From a virus, in the IMG/VR virus record IMGVR_UViG_3300047564_002393, positions 1-22,439 of that record: a DNA stretch of 22,439 bases; one strand, given 5' to 3'. The translations under genes and the position numbers were made by a program. The notes beneath the pieces are model-generated. The model was given only the letters and a program-made list of their open reading frames with translations. It was not told the origin of the DNA and searched no databases. Below are positions 1 to 16,766 of this stretch, piece after piece. Numbering within the stretch: the stretch's first letter is position 1; each line of letters begins with the position of its first letter.

Positions 1-369
1 TCCTGGTAATTCACCTGCCGATGAAGATATGTTTGATAAACTGCCAGATCTACCTCTAGTATCTTTTGGTTTTGATGCTCTACCAGTATTAACTTTGGTT
101 TCCATTCCAGAAGTTCTACTCGTTCTTGGATCTTTTGCTTTAGATACTTCATCAGCACCAAAAATAGCAGATTTCATTTTCCTAACTCTCTGCAAATTTG
201 CTACTATTTTTTGTGGATCACTTTCCCTTTTTTTGGAAAGTTGTGTCATCTTTTGTTTTGCAGTATCTGATGGACTTTTTTGACTGCCAGACAACTTCCC
301 ACTATTCCAAGCAATTTCCCTTTCCTGCAAATTATTGCACTCAAATATAAATTGAGAAAAAGTTTTCAT
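1..369 (-). CDS. Putative capsid-targeted internal protein (partial)
   Basis: Open reading frame of 123 codons starting at the ATG at 369 and running off the window edge at position 1, so the C terminus is missing. The N terminus reads MKTFSQFIFE. From memory, the T4 capsid-targeting peptide of internal protein III is MKTYQEFIAE, which the prohead protease gp21 cleaves after an I/L-x-E site; here I-F-E at residues 8-10 and L-Q-E at 14-16 both fit. The rest is basic and low in complexity, rich in Ser, Lys, Arg and Gly, with no recognisable enzyme motif. It begins just after a terminator, so it is probably a separate transcription unit. No good Shine-Dalgarno sequence is visible. Inferred role: a scaffold or internal protein packaged in the head. 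It could instead be a cytoplasmic protein with a chance N-terminal match. Confidence 0.72.
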   Translation of the reverse strand, partial: MKTFSQFIFECNNLQEREIAWNSGKLSGSQKSPSDTAKQKMTQLSKKRESDPQKIVANLQRVRKMKSAIFGADEVSKAKDPRTSRTSGMETKVNTGRASKPKDTRGRSGSLSNISSSAGELPG

Positions 370-378
370 TTTTATTTT

Positions 379-386
379 TATTTATT
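379..386 (-). promoter_or_regulatory. Possible late-promoter motif AATAAATA
   Basis: The minus strand reads AATAAATA, which fits the NATAAATA late motif of T4-like cyanophages. It lies only about ten bases before the ATG at 369, so a transcript starting there would have almost no leader. The surrounding run is A/T-only, so a chance match is likely. Confidence 0.25.
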
Positions 387-387
387 T

Positions 388-415
388 AAAAACCCCTCCA
401 GTAAACTAGAGGGGT
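388..415 (-). terminator. Intrinsic terminator after the 59-residue ORF
   Basis: On the minus strand a perfect 7-bp stem ACCCCTC/GAGGGGT with a 10-base loop is followed directly by a run of T. It lies seven bases after the stop of the small ORF and ends the long polymerase-uvsX-helicase operon. Confidence 0.88.
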
Positions 416-421
416 CATAAA

Positions 422-601
422 TTATTTTTTATTTACTGCGTCTTCCATTGCTGCATCAAGATTGGTAATAACTTCACGAAGATTAAAAATCCTTTCTGGA
501 ATTGCTGGTCCATCAGTATAACCTTCTTGTGCGTCAATTAGAGATAGAAGAACAACTTTAGATTCTTCAAGACTCATCTCAAGAACTACTTTAGTGCTCA
601 C
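422..601 (-). CDS. Small hypothetical protein, 59 aa, GTG start
   Basis: Short ORF that starts with GTG at 601 and ends in TAA at 422. The start is supported by two things: GTG overlaps the stop of the MazG-like gene as GTGA, and a strong GGAGG ribosome-binding site sits seven bases upstream (609-613). The product is acidic and probably helical, with a Leu/Val-rich N-terminal half containing EMSLEESKVVLLSLID and a C-terminal half ending in Asn-Lys-Lys. An in-frame ATG at codon 9 is an alternative start. I do not recognise the family. It is the last gene of the operon, directly before a terminator, and is probably made together with the pyrophosphohydrolase and helicase. Confidence 0.75.
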   Translation of the reverse strand: MSTKVVLEMSLEESKVVLLSLIDAQEGYTDGPAIPERIFNLREVITNLDAAMEDAVNKK

Positions 602-1020
602 AGATCTCCCTCCGCACGATTTTCAGAATAGTAAACATCAAAAGAACCACCAGGATAACGCTTCTCAAGTTTAGTCACATTCTTTGCGATCACTTCATCA
701 ATAGAAACTCCGAGTGCCATACATGCCTGTGCAACATACCACATCAGATCTCCAAGTTCAATAATCAAGTGATCTTTGTTATCTTGATTCCATGGTTTAC
801 CTTGAAAGATCATCTTCTTAATAATCTCAAGAAATTCACCGCCTTCTGCGTTAATGCCAACACCAGCGGTTAGAAGACGCTCAATGTTTGCACCTTTCTC
901 ATCCAGTTGAACAAGACGATCAGAGAGAGCGAGAAAATCAGTAGATGCTTCAGAAGTAACAGCATCTACAAACTCAGCATACTTATTAAAGTCAACAGAT
1001 TTAGTCATAGTTTCAGTCAT
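598..1020 (-). CDS. mazG: MazG-like nucleotide pyrophosphohydrolase
   Basis: A 140-residue protein with the single MazG domain of the all-alpha NTP pyrophosphohydrolases. The E-x-x-E helix is seen in GGEFLEIIKKM and the E-x-x-D helix in IIELGDLMWYVAQ, the metal-binding core of the family, which converts (d)NTPs to (d)NMP and pyrophosphate. Small MazG proteins are common in marine cyanophages; reported activity favours deoxynucleotides, which suits a role in nucleotide supply, although a role in lowering host ppGpp was proposed earlier. The ATG at 1020 overlaps the helicase stop (TGATG); the TTG one codon earlier is less likely. It lies directly after helicase gene 41 and before a 59-residue ORF, within the replication operon. 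Confidence 0.87.
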   Translation of the reverse strand: MTETMTKSVDFNKYAEFVDAVTSEASTDFLALSDRLVQLDEKGANIERLLTAGVGINAEGGEFLEIIKKMIFQGKPWNQDNKDHLIIELGDLMWYVAQACMALGVSIDEVIAKNVTKLEKRYPGGSFDVYYSENRAEGDL

Positions 1021-2396
1021 CAAAATTTCAATCCAGAGAATTTTTTAGTTAGTTTATTTTCTTCATCATTATACTCGTCTTCTTGTCCAGAGTCAAGTAT
1101 GTCTTTTTGTGCAGATTGTTCACAGTCATACAAACGCATCTTTGCACGATCAATCCCAAGAACAAACCTTTTATTAACTGTAGGATCATTGTAACGATTC
1201 TTCAGTTGTTTTACCATAATTTGTCCAAGACCTTCAAGTTCTTCTGTAGAAATAAGGGCAAACATAAGATCAGCAGTAGCAGGAAGACCAAAGGATTCAC
1301 TAGTATCAGTAAGTTCAACATCACTACTACCGTAACCAGAACGAGTAGTTTGTGTTGCAGATACGATGGGAACATTTGCTTCAACTGCAAGACCTCTAAG
1401 TTCTTCAGCAATCGCTTTAATATAACTATAGGAATTGACGGAAATGCCAGACTTATATCGTGAGGAAGCACATATATTAAGGTAATCAATGAAGATAATA
1501 TCAGGTTTAAATGATTTCTTAAGTGCTAACTCATTAATAAGTGACTTAAAGTGCCCACTGTGTGCAGATGCAGTTGGGTACTCTTTGATGATTAGAGTTC
1601 CTTGAGTTTTCTTAGATAGGTTTGTAACTTTATTTTCAAACATATTACGAGGAATACTTTCAATCTCCTGGATATTAATATTCAAAAGATTAGAATCGAT
1701 CCTCTCTGCAATTCTTTCCTCTGCCATCTCCATGGTAATGTACAAAACATTTTTACCTTGAAGCAAACAAGCAGAGGCAACATGACACATAAAAAGTGAT
1801 TTACCAACTCCAGTGCCAGCAAGAGCAATATTCAATGTCTTATTTGGTAGTCCACCTTTGGTAATTTTATTAAAGAACTCCAAATCGAAAGGAATTTTTT
1901 CCTCAGTTTGATGATAGAAATCATATCGTTGTTCATAGTCTTGAAGATAATCGTGACCGACATTATTATCAAAACTAACAGCAAGGGCATCAGAGAGAAT
2001 AGAAGGAATAGCATCTCTGTTTTTCTTCTCACTATTTCCATCTGCAATACTAATGGATTCCACTAGTGCTAGATAAATTGCCCTATCCCTACACCACTTT
2101 TCTGCTGTATCAAATAACCAATGAATATCATTTGGACTATTCTGTAAAGAATCAACATATTCACATATTGTTTTAAATGTATCATCATTTATATCTGTTC
2201 GTTTTTCAGATTCGATGATAATTACTTCCTTAGTCGGAAGTGAATTATACTTAACAATAAACTTACATACCTCCTCAAAAATTACTTTCTCATGATGATT
2301 TTCAAAATATTCATTACGAATGAAGGGTAAAACTTTTCTAGAAAATTCATCATTAAAGACCAAATTTTTTAGAATAGTCGTTTCAACTTTTTCCAT
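1020..2396 (-). CDS. 41: Replicative DNA helicase gp41 (DnaB-like)
   Basis: 458-residue hexameric 5'-3' helicase that unwinds DNA at the fork and, in T4, works with primase gp61 and loader gp59. An N-terminal helical domain (about 1-150) is followed by a RecA-like motor. Walker A is AGTGVGKS, Walker B is DIIFIDYLNI, and the downstream SATQTTRSG and KNRYNDP segments match DnaB-family motifs H3 and H4. The C-terminal 30 or so residues are acidic and then basic, a likely tail for partner contacts. The start codon overlaps the preceding dioxygenase stop (TAATG) and the gene overlaps mazG by one base, so translation is probably coupled. Length is close to T4 gp41 (475 residues). No primase gene lies in this window. 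Confidence 0.95.
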   Translation of the reverse strand: MEKVETTILKNLVFNDEFSRKVLPFIRNEYFENHHEKVIFEEVCKFIVKYNSLPTKEVIIIESEKRTDINDDTFKTICEYVDSLQNSPNDIHWLFDTAEKWCRDRAIYLALVESISIADGNSEKKNRDAIPSILSDALAVSFDNNVGHDYLQDYEQRYDFYHQTEEKIPFDLEFFNKITKGGLPNKTLNIALAGTGVGKSLFMCHVASACLLQGKNVLYITMEMAEERIAERIDSNLLNINIQEIESIPRNMFENKVTNLSKKTQGTLIIKEYPTASAHSGHFKSLINELALKKSFKPDIIFIDYLNICASSRYKSGISVNSYSYIKAIAEELRGLAVEANVPIVSATQTTRSGYGSSDVELTDTSESFGLPATADLMFALISTEELEGLGQIMVKQLKNRYNDPTVNKRFVLGIDRAKMRLYDCEQSAQKDILDSGQEDEYNDEENKLTKKFSGLKF

Positions 2397-13069: not shown

Positions 13070-13098
13070 ATTATATCAGAAAGGAAGATCAGATGCAA
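13070..13098 (-). promoter_or_regulatory. Extended -10 promoter of the clamp operon
   Basis: Minus strand TTGCAT (13098-13093), 17 bases, then TATAAT (13075-13070) preceded by TGA, the extended -10 form TGn. It overlaps the last codons of the CobS-like gene. RNA would start near 13063, some 20 bases before the DUF3310-like ATG. Confidence 0.62.
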
Positions 13099-14173
13099 CC
13101 TCTTGAGAAGGCATCTGGAAATCAGCATCAACTTTATCGTACAGTTCCAAGAATGCTTGCTTGGTTTCATCATCAAAGCGGTTTACACACACTTGAATTG
13201 CCTTTGCCTTATCGCTGAAGATGCTATAAGCACGGATGATGTGAACCAGACGGCGGGTGCTGATAATTTCCTCAATACCACCATCATAGAAGGTCTTGCG
13301 GATGATGTCTGCCCAATCCACAAGGCGCTTACAGAAGTCACGGTCTTCCACGCCAAGGTCCAGAGCAATTCCCTCAAGGATCTTCTGCTCAGTTGCAGGG
13401 GCAGGATAGGACTGCTCAAAGGTCACAGGGAAACGCTCTAGGAATGCCTCATTGAGCACATTGGTGCCGATGAAGCGTCCATCATCGCTACCCTTACCTT
13501 TGGTGTTAGCAGTAGCAATTACATTAAAACCAGCAGCAGGTTTTACGAACCGACCAATCTTTTTCAGGAAAACACCCTTTCCTTCCAACACGGATTGTAG
13601 ACAAAGGATTTTGTTGGATGCCAGGTCGATCTCGTCAAGGAGCAGGATCGCTCCACGCTGGAGTGCTTCAATGACTGGACCGTTGTGCCAAACAGTAGCA
13701 CCATCAACAAGACGGAATCCACCAATTAGATCGTCTTCATCAGTCTCAATCGTGATGTTAACACGAATCAGTTCTCGACTGAGTTGGGCACACGCTTGTT
13801 CAATAGAAAACGTTTTACCGTTGCCCGAAAGACCAGTGACAAAAGTCGGATAGAATACTTTGGATTGGATAATTTTTTTAATGTCGTTAAAATTACCAAA
13901 CTTGACGAAGGTATCATCTTTTTCTGGAATAAGATTTTGTTCGATGGGAAGAATAGTAGCAGGAACTTTTACAACTTGCTCAAGTTGCTCTCGTGCTTCT
14001 TGGATGGTCAGATTCCACTTACCACGACTAGTTTTGTACTGATCGAGTTTTTTAGTAACAGTCTGGTAGTTAGCACCATTCATAGCGCACCATCCACGAA
14101 TATCAGCAGCAGTAACGGATTCACCGTAAACTGACTGGAGAGAAGTAATGATGTAGTCAACGGAGATGGTCAT
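13076..14173 (-). CDS. cobS: CobS/MoxR-like AAA+ ATPase
   Basis: 365-residue ATPase annotated in cyanophages as CobS, the ATPase subunit of aerobic cobaltochelatase. After about 90 helical N-terminal residues come Walker A GLSGNGKT (114-121), Walker B AILLLDEID, sensor 1 IATANTKGKG and an arginine-finger region NEAFLERFPVTFEQ; the order is that of the MoxR/CobS clade. The start at 14173 is set by the TATAAT promoter at 14202-14207; the ORF is open further upstream, but that part is promoter DNA. There is no ribosome-binding site. Just upstream lies a VWA-domain gene, so the two form a MoxR-VWA pair that remodels a target protein. Whether it makes vitamin B12, as the name implies, is not shown by the sequence. 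Confidence 0.88.
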   Translation of the reverse strand: MTISVDYIITSLQSVYGESVTAADIRGWCAMNGANYQTVTKKLDQYKTSRGKWNLTIQEAREQLEQVVKVPATILPIEQNLIPEKDDTFVKFGNFNDIKKIIQSKVFYPTFVTGLSGNGKTFSIEQACAQLSRELIRVNITIETDEDDLIGGFRLVDGATVWHNGPVIEALQRGAILLLDEIDLASNKILCLQSVLEGKGVFLKKIGRFVKPAAGFNVIATANTKGKGSDDGRFIGTNVLNEAFLERFPVTFEQSYPAPATEQKILEGIALDLGVEDRDFCKRLVDWADIIRKTFYDGGIEEIISTRRLVHIIRAYSIFSDKAKAIQVCVNRFDDETKQAFLELYDKVDADFQMPSQEVASDLPF

Positions 14174-14201
14174 TGGTTGGTTGTTTGTTTCAACTGAAGT
14201 T

Positions 14202-14207
14202 ATTATA
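14202..14207 (-). promoter_or_regulatory. Extended -10 promoter of cobS
   Basis: TGGTATAAT on the minus strand is a perfect extended -10 (TGn plus TATAAT). No good -35 is visible; the region where it would be is the terminator hairpin at 14213-14235. Confidence 0.65.
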
Positions 14208-14212
14208 CCAGC

Positions 14213-14235
14213 AAAAAGGGTCCGCAAGGGACCCC
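14213..14235 (-). terminator. Intrinsic terminator upstream of cobS
   Basis: Minus-strand stem GGGTCC/GGACCC (six pairs, extendable) with a five-base loop followed by five T. It closes the unit of the VWA protein and the Pro/Ala-rich ORF, and merges into the cobS promoter. Confidence 0.88.
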
Positions 14236-14262
14236 AGTAGACAGTTCAAGAAGTGGTATCTA

Positions 14263-14418
14263 TCAATCCATCGTAAAACCCTTTTTCTTTCTAGTTGATT
14301 TCACATTCCCATCTGCTTTTGCTTCTGGGGATGGAACAACTGCTGGTGCTGGTTGTGATGGTGCTGCTGGAGCAGGTGCAGGTTCTGGCTCTTGAAATAA
14401 ATTTGAAAATCTGCTCAT
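14263..14418 (-). CDS. Small Pro/Ala-rich protein, 51 aa
   Basis: Short ORF from ATG at 14418 to TGA at 14263. It starts MSRFSNLFQEPEPAPAPAAP, continues as a Pro/Ala/Ser/Gln-rich linker to about residue 37, and ends with a basic stretch STRKKKGFTMD. No globular domain is apparent. It has a late-type GATAAATA motif 26 bases upstream and a terminator downstream, so it may be its own late transcript. The MSRF-x-x-LF start and basic end look like a short adaptor peptide that holds two partners together; this is a guess. I do not recognise the family. Confidence 0.68.
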   Translation of the reverse strand: MSRFSNLFQEPEPAPAPAAPSQPAPAVVPSPEAKADGNVKSTRKKKGFTMD

Positions 14419-14443
14419 TTACTTTACTAGAACTCTATAAAAA

Positions 14444-14451
14444 TATTTATC
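14444..14451 (-). promoter_or_regulatory. Late-promoter motif GATAAATA at VWA stop
   Basis: The minus strand reads GATAAATA, fitting NATAAATA, and overlaps the TGA stop of the VWA gene. It is 26 bases before the start of the 51-residue ORF, a normal distance for a late promoter with a short leader. Confidence 0.5.
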
Positions 14452-16597
14452 AAGAGATAAGTTCTACAAACTCACCAAGAATTTTTTTATTCATCTTTTT
14501 AGACTTCAAACTCTTCACAAATGCAGTTTTGATTTGGGATTTGGTAGCATCTTCAGCAACTTCAAACTCAGTATCTTGCCCAAGAGTATTTGCCGCAAGA
14601 CCAAAGTAACTATGATAACCTGATTTTTTGATAGAAAATGATTTTTGCTTTCTCCAAGAAGAATAAGTTGTATCATATTCCTTTCCAAAATATCCACAAT
14701 ACCGACGAATAAAAGCGCCTGCATCACGAGATTCTAGGACTCGAATACCAATAAAGTTAATATTGTTAAAACTATCCCTCAGATTGCGAAGAAGAACATC
14801 AGTAAATCCATACCATTCGACATCACAGGAATAGGTGTGACCATTTTTACGATCACGCAAGAAAGCATTTGGACCAATATGAGCAGTGCCCATAAAAGGT
14901 TCAACTTCAAAACGGCGTTGAACTTCACGATGATACTTAAGCATACATGCTTCGCCATCAGTCAAAACAATACACTGAACCTTCTGAAGTTTGTTTTCCT
15001 TTTGGAACTTAGGAAGAATTTGATGAAGAGAAATCAATGCCTCGTTTAGAGGAGTTCCAGATAGACTTAGACCAGGAGGTACACTGTAATAAACAAAAGA
15101 ATTATAACGAAAACTAGATGCAAGACGAAAAATAATTTTCATTTGATTTTCTAGAGTTTTTGCATTTACTTTGCTTGTCAACAAGTTCATCATAGAGAAC
15201 CATTCTCCAACCTGAACTAATCCATCACGCTTAGCGTAAGAAAGTTCACGGATAGTTACTTTATTATTTTCATCATATTTGACAAGTGGATAATCACTTG
15301 TGAATGCATAAACCTCAAATGGAATAGAAACCTTCTTACAGAACCATACCAGGTTGAAGAGTTGCTTGACAGTATCGAGCATCACATCACCCATAGAACC
15401 AGACCAGTCCAGTACAAACACCAAACCATGGTTCTTACCATCAGCAAGAGTGGTGACTTTCTTGAAGAGATCTTCGTTATATTTGTAGGTATGAAGTTTG
15501 GAACAGTCCAGAACACCAGTACGAGCAGTCGAAGCACGAGCATAGGAGTCTGCTGCCTTGCGGCACTCAAACTCTTTCACCAGATAGTTCACTTCTTTCT
15601 GTGCTGAACGCTTAAATTCGACAAAGAGACGATCAACTTCACTAAAGATTTCCTCTTCAGAATATTCCTTTTCATCCATCCAAGATCCCCAGTAATCACT
15701 ACACTTGGAATGAATTTCTAAGTTGGAAACAATAACTTTATTCAAATCAAGTTGAGGCAACTCAAGGTAAACATTCTCATAACCATCCATATTAGCAAGA
15801 TCCTTTAGAGCATCTTCCAGAGACTCCATAGTCTTGATTTCTGGTTCTTCATTGGTCTCACCACCCATAGAAGTAGGTTGTTGTTGCTGCTGCTCAGAAG
15901 TTCCACCATAAGACTCAGTTTCACCAGGTTGCTCCTGGTCACCTTCATTCTCACCCTCAGGTTGATCAGAGAAATCAGAAGCACCTTGATTAGAACCAGA
16001 AGTCTGAGACTCCAGATCATCCATAGGAGTCTTGGTTTCTTCTTGCTGCTTTTTCTTACAGAACTTATAGAGAACTTCTGCAGCAATCAGAACATCAGAG
16101 AAAGTCTCACACTCACCGATCATACGAACGATGGGCATCTCATCAAAATCATTAAAAGGAATTTCTACAAAGTTTCCAATCTTGTAATACAGATTGACCT
16201 TATCGGCAAGATTGTAAGTAGTAATATCATCATCTCCCAGTTGAAAAAAGTCTTCATCAGACAACTCTTTGTATCCGTTATAGAAGGTCTTGGCAAGACC
16301 AGCATAACGACGCTTCATCAGTTTCTCAATGCGAGCATCCTCAACCACATTCACAAACTGCGGAGGAATCTTGTGCTCCTTCAACCAATCCTCATCAGGC
16401 GTATAGAGAGCGTGACCCACCTCGTGACCCACCAGAAGGTCATATACGGTGCTGCTTGCTCGCTCCCACATAGGCAGGGTCAGTACGCGGGTATGGACAT
16501 TAAAGCAGGCAGTCTCTACCTTCTTGTGCTCAACCACAAGGTCTTCAGTGGCAAGCAGTTTGGCGAGTTGGGACTTGATTTCGTGACGGATGGTCAT
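14450..16597 (-). CDS. VWA-domain protein with zincin motif (CobT-like partner)
   Basis: 715-residue protein with three parts. Residues 1-180 contain HEVGH at 58-62, a classic HExxH zinc-peptidase motif, and VEDARIE at 85-91, where a third ligand (Glu) of a gluzincin would be expected. Residues about 183-260 are an acidic Gln/Ser-rich linker with five consecutive Gln. The C-terminal half is a VWA domain with the MIDAS motif D397-W-S-G-S401 and a downstream LTDGEA. CobT, partner of CobS, also has an acidic linker and a C-terminal VWA domain. The start at 16597 follows a TATAAT element and has no ribosome-binding site. With the CobS-like ATPase it forms a MoxR-VWA module; a peptidase or chaperone role is as likely as metal chelation. 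Confidence 0.85.
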   Translation of the reverse strand: MTIRHEIKSQLAKLLATEDLVVEHKKVETACFNVHTRVLTLPMWERASSTVYDLLVGHEVGHALYTPDEDWLKEHKIPPQFVNVVEDARIEKLMKRRYAGLAKTFYNGYKELSDEDFFQLGDDDITTYNLADKVNLYYKIGNFVEIPFNDFDEMPIVRMIGECETFSDVLIAAEVLYKFCKKKQQEETKTPMDDLESQTSGSNQGASDFSDQPEGENEGDQEQPGETESYGGTSEQQQQQPTSMGGETNEEPEIKTMESLEDALKDLANMDGYENVYLELPQLDLNKVIVSNLEIHSKCSDYWGSWMDEKEYSEEEIFSEVDRLFVEFKRSAQKEVNYLVKEFECRKAADSYARASTARTGVLDCSKLHTYKYNEDLFKKVTTLADGKNHGLVFVLDWSGSMGDVMLDTVKQLFNLVWFCKKVSIPFEVYAFTSDYPLVKYDENNKVTIRELSYAKRDGLVQVGEWFSMMNLLTSKVNAKTLENQMKIIFRLASSFRYNSFVYYSVPPGLSLSGTPLNEALISLHQILPKFQKENKLQKVQCIVLTDGEACMLKYHREVQRRFEVEPFMGTAHIGPNAFLRDRKNGHTYSCDVEWYGFTDVLLRNLRDSFNNINFIGIRVLESRDAGAFIRRYCGYFGKEYDTTYSSWRKQKSFSIKKSGYHSYFGLAANTLGQDTEFEVAEDATKSQIKTAFVKSLKSKKMNKKILGEFVELIS

Positions 16598-16618
16598 TGA
16601 TCTGTTGCGTATGGACCT

Positions 16619-16624
16619 ATTATA
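16619..16624 (-). promoter_or_regulatory. TATAAT promoter of the VWA gene
   Basis: A perfect TATAAT on the minus strand, about 22 bases before the ATG at 16597 and directly after the terminator at 16626-16651. No clear -35. It also contains the stop codon of the tiny basic ORF upstream. Confidence 0.55.
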
Positions 16625-16766
16625 CAAAAGAACCCCGCCTTTGGGGCGAGGTCATGTGACGCTTTTTGAACTGGCGTAATGCTTCACGCCGTGCTCTCAA
16701 TGCTTGCGGTTTAAGTTTTCGTTTCTGTTCCTTCTTGGAATGATGCTGCCAGTTTGGAGTGTTCAT
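16620..16766 (-). CDS. Tiny basic protein, 48 aa
   Basis: ORF starting at the ATG at 16766, which overlaps the gene 46 stop (ATGA), and ending with the TAA at 16620. The protein is strongly basic: NTPNWQHHSKKEQKRKLKPQ, then ALRARREALRQFKKRH, a likely nucleic-acid-binding helix. Its last ten codons run through a terminator hairpin and the stop lies within the TATAAT of the next gene. A basic composition together with the coupled start argues for a real gene, yet the 3' end overlapping two signals is unusual and there is no ribosome-binding site. I do not recognise the family with certainty. Confidence 0.65.
   Translation of the reverse strand: MNTPNWQHHSKKEQKRKLKPQALRARREALRQFKKRHMTSPQRRGSFV
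16626..16651 (-). terminator. Intrinsic terminator after gene 46 and the basic ORF
   Basis: Minus-strand stem CCTCGCC/GGCGGGG (seven pairs, one G-U) with a five-base loop, then TTCTTTT. It overlaps the end of the tiny basic ORF. Confidence 0.75.

Follow-up and report, generated by a model that had tools for sequence, protein, structure and literature searches.

A candidate T4-type internal head protein with a tandem-site capsid-targeting leader in a T4-like cyanophage

The question raised by this locus is whether a short basic protein, encoded next to the replication genes of a cyanophage, is loaded into the phage head together with the DNA. The window analysed, a 22,439-base IMG/VR fragment, belongs to a T4-like cyanophage whose nearest relatives, at approximately 74–80% DNA identity, are mostly members of the Kyanoviridae. 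Its gene content includes uvsX, gp41, mazG, gp43, the clamp and loader genes, gp46/47 and gp55. Elsewhere in the window (13076-16627, minus strand), a MoxR/CobS-like ATPase gene adjoins a gene whose 725-aa product has a putative von Willebrand-type domain.

The leader and its gene

The gene in question is the final one before the window edge, complement(1..369). It starts with ATG, reads MKTFSQFIFECNNLQEREIAWNSGKLSG... and is cut by the edge at 123 aa. The same protein is present at 100% identity, and complete, in a second IMG/VR contig (L002; whole contig L020), where it comprises 161 aa with a pI of 10.9.

The first ten residues, MKTFSQFIFE, fit the form M-K-x-[FY]-x-x-[FY]-[IL]-x-E of the T4 internal proteins IPII and IPIII, whose leader, MKTYQEFIAE, was read from the T4 record. 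Agreement at M, K, T, F/Y, F, I and E had been claimed in the original prediction and was borne out, with six of ten positions identical, or seven counting F/Y. The start of T4 gp61.1, MKTFKEFIKE, is identical at seven of ten. Incorporation of IPIII needs just the first ten residues; mutational work assigns positions 4 and 7 to targeting and positions 8 and 10 to processing, and the protease gp21 cleaves after L/I-x-E (review of Black's work, PMC9026906). At all four of these positions the window protein has a suitable residue, aromatic at 4 and 7, aliphatic at 8 and E at 10; K2 is present as well. T4 gp61.1 itself (NC_000866, 18966-19130, minus strand; L327) is a hypothetical protein of 54 aa and, judged by its N terminus, is a candidate for an unrecognised T4 internal protein.

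The second L-x-E proposed at residues 14–16 is present, and the description of the rest of the protein as basic also holds: the 145 residues after E16 contain 32 K+R versus 12 D+E and are rich in S and G. An AlphaFold2 model is of low confidence (mean pLDDT 51), with low-confidence helices to about residue 78 and predicted disorder beyond. Pfam and PHROGs searches returned no family and no enzyme domain, and the body showed no similarity to IPI, IPII or IPIII. The likeness to these three T4 proteins (Straboviridae) lies in the ten-residue N-terminal leader with the same key residues and the [IL]-x-E site, in small size and basic character, and in the lack of homology between bodies behind a common leader, since the T4 proteins share the leader alone. 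The window protein differs from them in its phage family and hosts, its unrelated body, a six-residue extension with a second protease site, and a gene that adjoins a mazG–cytidylyltransferase cluster. The head and ejection propeptides of phiKZ-like phages and SPN3US are also protease-removed regions of head-packed proteins with redundant cleavage sites, although phiKZ belongs to a different phage group and uses an S/A-x-E motif (PMC9026906).

The gene does adjoin the replication genes, as originally stated, but a transcript shared with them was not supported. The gene was excluded from the replication operon on two grounds: a terminator-like hairpin lies before it and a late-type promoter-like element, AATAAATA, precedes its start (Table 1). 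Such an element lies upstream of just one of the 28 other window genes. The form [ACGT]ATAAATA is found at −18 to −29 in all 13 homologues described below, an observation made on sequence without transcript data, and in a wider set of leader genes ATAAATA occurs within 60 bases upstream in 22 of 88, against 1.7% of random 60-mers. The gene order in most homologous loci is uvsX, gp41, mazG, small ORF, leader protein, basic protein, (tRNA-Ala), cytidylyltransferase, basic protein. ORFs 89 to 93 of cyanophage S-SCSM1, labelled as virion proteins, include counterparts of the downstream genes (ORFs 89, 91 and 92). The products of the next two genes, read in L002 (2053-2985 and 3076-4602), are basic, with L-x-E sites in acidic N-terminal regions; they share an EGFASD motif followed by VYE or IYE, and both genes have TATAAATA upstream.

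Table 1. Features of the candidate gene and the adjoining region. Positions are those of the window unless a contig is named.
Feature	Position	Strand	Basis	Remarks
Internal-protein candidate gene	1..369	-	ORF list, second contig	Codons 1-123 of 161
Remainder of candidate gene	L020:5316-5801	-		Past the window edge; read in second contig
Capsid-targeting leader (putative)	340..369	-		Codons 1-10, MKTFSQFIFE; first protease-like site I8-x-E10
Leader extension	322..339	-		Codons 11-16, CNNLQE; second protease-like site L14-Q15-E16; conserved body from R17
Predicted mature part	1..321	-	Composition, structure model	From R17; basic, Gly/Ser-rich
T4-late-promoter-like element	379..386	-	Sequence	AATAAATA, at -17
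Terminator-like hairpin	387..415	-		ACCCCTC, loop, GAGGGGT, T run; between replication transcript and leader gene
Small ORF	422..601	-		59 aa; between mazG and leader gene; position kept in homologous loci
mazG	598..1023	-		Synteny anchor with gp41 and uvsX

Homologues and the site of cleavage

A scan with the leader pattern gave relatives that had been missed by direct searches, and an alignment search then gave 13 homologous loci, with 34–62% identity where complete. Homologues lacking the peptide would have refuted the original prediction. None was present among the 13, all of which keep the leader MKTF..F[IVL]. A tblastn search of the window protein and a relative (L230) against 50,697 phage records yielded nothing usable, and none of the virion proteomes consulted comes from a phage with a member of this family. 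A search for the window protein in 17 contigs carrying near cytidylyltransferases gave one weak match (E 0.003).

Although the leader varies in length, a conserved block stands directly after [IL]-x-E in each of the 13 homologues, and this bears on where the protein would be cut. The leader could target the protein while processing takes place at E10, as in T4, with the LQE at residues 14–16 merely incidental; in its favour, T4 propeptides end at the canonical position, which I8-x-E10 occupies. We consider this unlikely. In most homologues, the ten-residue leader goes straight into the conserved body (FISE/AEVAWNTG, the slash marking the presumed cut), whereas the window protein has six inserted residues, CNNLQE, and matches that body only after the second site (LQE/REIAWNSG). 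In its closest relative (L311), E10 is lost and the second LQE is kept in register (MKTFSQFVGLLQE/KEIAWNSG). The same arrangement is seen in a family of S-adenosylmethionine (SAM) lyases, with FIDE/SSLARIKSKSDKGG, FITECYSIQE/TSLNRVRSKSDKGG and, in ORF6 of cyanophage S-CREM2, an extended leader, FLEEFDRDQESLEE/SSLSRLVRKGDKGG (SLEE/SSLSRL). This pattern, seen in both families, suggests that the cut fixes the start of the body and that the extra site serves as a working alternative. Cleavage at the second site (after E16), and not at the first, would probably yield the conserved mature N terminus.

The window fragment stops short of the head genes; all seven cyanophages compared have a conserved gp21 prohead protease. 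Their gp23 propeptides terminate in LTE, LAE, ISE or LNE, and that of T4 in LTE before AEIGG, the site at which T4 gp23 is cut.

Leader-bearing enzymes and virion proteomes

It had been suggested that the same N terminus could be found elsewhere, and in complete genomes the motif picks out T4 ipII and ipIII and three genes of S-CREM2. The three S-CREM2 genes, the only strict matches in that genome, are ORF6, ORF14 (kinase) and ORF154 (cytidylyltransferase), and the products of all three are among the non-structural proteins of purified virions (PMC10665884). ORF6 is annotated as a SAM hydrolase and matches the Pfam S-AdoMet lyase family PF23780 (E 2e-19). A relaxed motif adds ORF13 and ORF136, both detected in virions, and a sixth match, a 55-aa ORF, which was undetected. 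Given 52 virion proteins among 219, the association is 3/3 for the strict motif (P 0.013) and 5/6 for the relaxed motif (P 0.003). In ORF12, a non-structural virion enzyme, a similar stretch, LRFASFMAEA, begins at residue 18. Virion proteomes may include carry-over, and the S-CREM2 authors themselves state that contamination was not ruled out (PMC10665884).

ORFs 12–15 of S-CREM2 are contiguous (L324, 7704-13331, minus strand), and all four products are found in virions. The leader opens ORFs 13 and 14; the internal stretch given above is that of ORF12, and ORF15 contains a weaker leader-like stretch. It is possible that these genes form a cargo island.

The cytidylyltransferase (NMNAT-like; T4-GC190, PF01467) is a cyanophage core protein encoded in the same late cluster as the window protein, a few genes downstream, and starts with the same leader, MKSFxQFIxEA. 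It is an enzyme with a GDGHGDWYD module, whereas the window protein has no enzyme domain. Besides those of S-CREM2, virions of S-SM1 (PMC3037559), S-SCSM1 (PMC9602691) and S-SZBM1 (PMC9146016) have been shown to contain it. The leader, with F or L at position 4, was present in 75 of the 79 IMG/VR sequences read. Among 25 distinct N-termini, K2, F4, F7, I/L8 and E10 are conserved, and these correspond to the targeting and processing positions of T4 IPIII. The S-SZBM1 enzyme has a variant shorter by one residue, MRFRQFIIEA; in the same phage ORFs 191 and 192, both small, have the leader and were not detected in virions by mass spectrometry.

Behind the leader, the cytidylyltransferases (L033-L112) contain the module QAKxxGLxGDGHGxWYDxxGxxVAKTxxGxLKFF. 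The GDGHG module recurs in the S-CREM2 kinase and in Cas9-like virion proteins (L031, 10579-12846), and might serve as a second domain for packaging or for binding to the head. Another small recurrent domain, ending near YPGAxVxxxYP or YPxAxVxxFxP, was seen in L022, L024, L114 (8312-8629) and at the C-terminus of the L194 and L214 proteins; it occurs either alone behind the leader or C-terminally in longer leader proteins.

Leader-bearing genes also encode SAM lyases, kinases, ADP-ribosyltransferases and GNAT proteins. The S-CREM2 ORF6 lyase resembles the window protein in its leader, which is likewise extended by a second x-E ahead of the conserved body, and is itself found in virions; it differs in belonging to an enzyme family with known anti-restriction members, and the two are not homologous. 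A packaged and injected SAM lyase could counter restriction before any phage gene expression. S-AdoMet lyase-like leader proteins are encoded in S-CREM2 (L031, 3837-5081, minus strand) and in L209, L214, L236, L246, L248, L252, L254 and L258. In L250 (6037-6816), a leader protein of 259 aa has an ART-PolyVal ADP-ribosyltransferase domain (PF18760, E 1e-23) and is reminiscent of the injected Alt protein of T4; YHGT-like sequences in L202, L247 and L213 may be related to it. One contig (L242, 7000-9422, minus strand) contains four different leader-bearing genes within 2.5 kb.

The tests run support the original proposal of a T4-type internal-protein candidate, while packaging, cleavage, DNA binding and injection have not been shown. 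We consider it probable that the product of this gene is an internal head protein of the T4 type, belonging to a T4-like cyanophage (Kyanoviridae), and that it is loaded by its leader, cut by a gp21-type protease and probably injected; packaging, cutting and injection are inferences from sequence. The gene would be transcribed late, as its putative promoter suggests. The leader, MKTFSQFIFE(CNNLQE), probably a short helix, would dock the precursor on the prohead core, and a gp21-type prohead protease would cut after [IL]-x-E, most likely after E16. What remains among the packaged DNA would be a basic and mostly disordered product of some 145 residues, although there are no DNA-binding data. By inference from T4, the mature protein would probably enter the host together with the phage DNA and there target either host defence or DNA.

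The protein could instead be loaded by its leader and cut, and then remain in the head or be lost, as a prohead core or head-structural protein that is never injected. Its basic, disordered, low-complexity character is that of a DNA-associated filler, it lacks an enzyme domain, and its neighbours are basic, Lys-rich proteins with acidic N termini, L-x-E sites and virion-protein counterparts. Such a purely structural fate nevertheless seems doubtful, since the leader-bearing internal proteins of T4 are injected, and leader-bearing enzymes such as the SAM lyase, kinase, ADP-ribosyltransferase and GNAT proteins make sense mainly if delivered. For an injected window protein, a counter-defence role is the natural first guess by analogy with T4 Ip1-3, which behind their leader inhibit GmrSD, type IV restriction enzymes (PMC12373910), but the sequence itself gives no evidence of such a role.

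Frequency of the leader and its possible meaning

The chance of finding the leader among the 29 genes of the window, calculated from the amino-acid composition of the window, is approximately 5e-4. In eight complete genomes, the motif opens 14 of about 1,890 genes, with 0.006 expected at starts, and occurs just once among 323,847 internal residues; S-PM2 gave no strict match in the complete-genome scan. At the DNA level, the motif pattern matched in 9 of 13 records, at 19 places, and the reversed pattern at none. A narrow pattern run over 2.9 million viral contigs matched at least 120 stretches, which are to be regarded as a sample, and a permuted pattern of the same information content matched none. 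Every one of the matches listed (80 loci, 89 matches) stands at the start of a reading frame that is 50 codons or longer. Since the motif was defined with T4 and the first cyanophage examples already in view, the P values are descriptive and not blind tests.

The leader peptide is short and Met-Lys starts are common, but the counts at starts versus interiors, the absence of permuted matches, the invariance of the leader in homologues and its link with virion proteins make it very improbable that the likeness to T4 leaders is fortuitous or a general translation-start preference of these phages, and chance was rejected on the internal-position and permuted-pattern controls. The leader observation is correct and far above chance.

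That such proteins are hardly described in this phage group, as first suggested, agrees with the literature searched, in which no description of a capsid-targeting sequence in cyanophages was found; unsearched papers may exist. The kind of protein is known from T4. The novelty lies in the phage family, in the tandem-site form and in the protein family, and also in the explanation offered for the virion enzymes of cyanophages.

More broadly, we think it likely that T4-like cyanophages and related uncultured phages share a tag, M-K-x-[FL]-x-x-F-[IL]-x-E, in some cases followed by a second cleavage site, and that this tag loads a large, rapidly changing set of proteins into the head for injection. 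The cargo of this shared tag would comprise DNA-associated basic proteins, SAM lyases, ADP-ribosyltransferases, kinases, acetyltransferases, HNH proteins and cytidylyltransferases. A T4-like loading tag would explain the enzymes that recur without explanation in cyanophage virion proteomes. If this is true, the injected proteome would be readable from the genome sequence, with leader-bearing genes predicted to encode injected proteins. Because T4 Ip1-3 disable type IV restriction enzymes (PMC12373910), the tag may also mark candidate counter-defence proteins in the cyanophages, which are some of the most abundant marine viruses.
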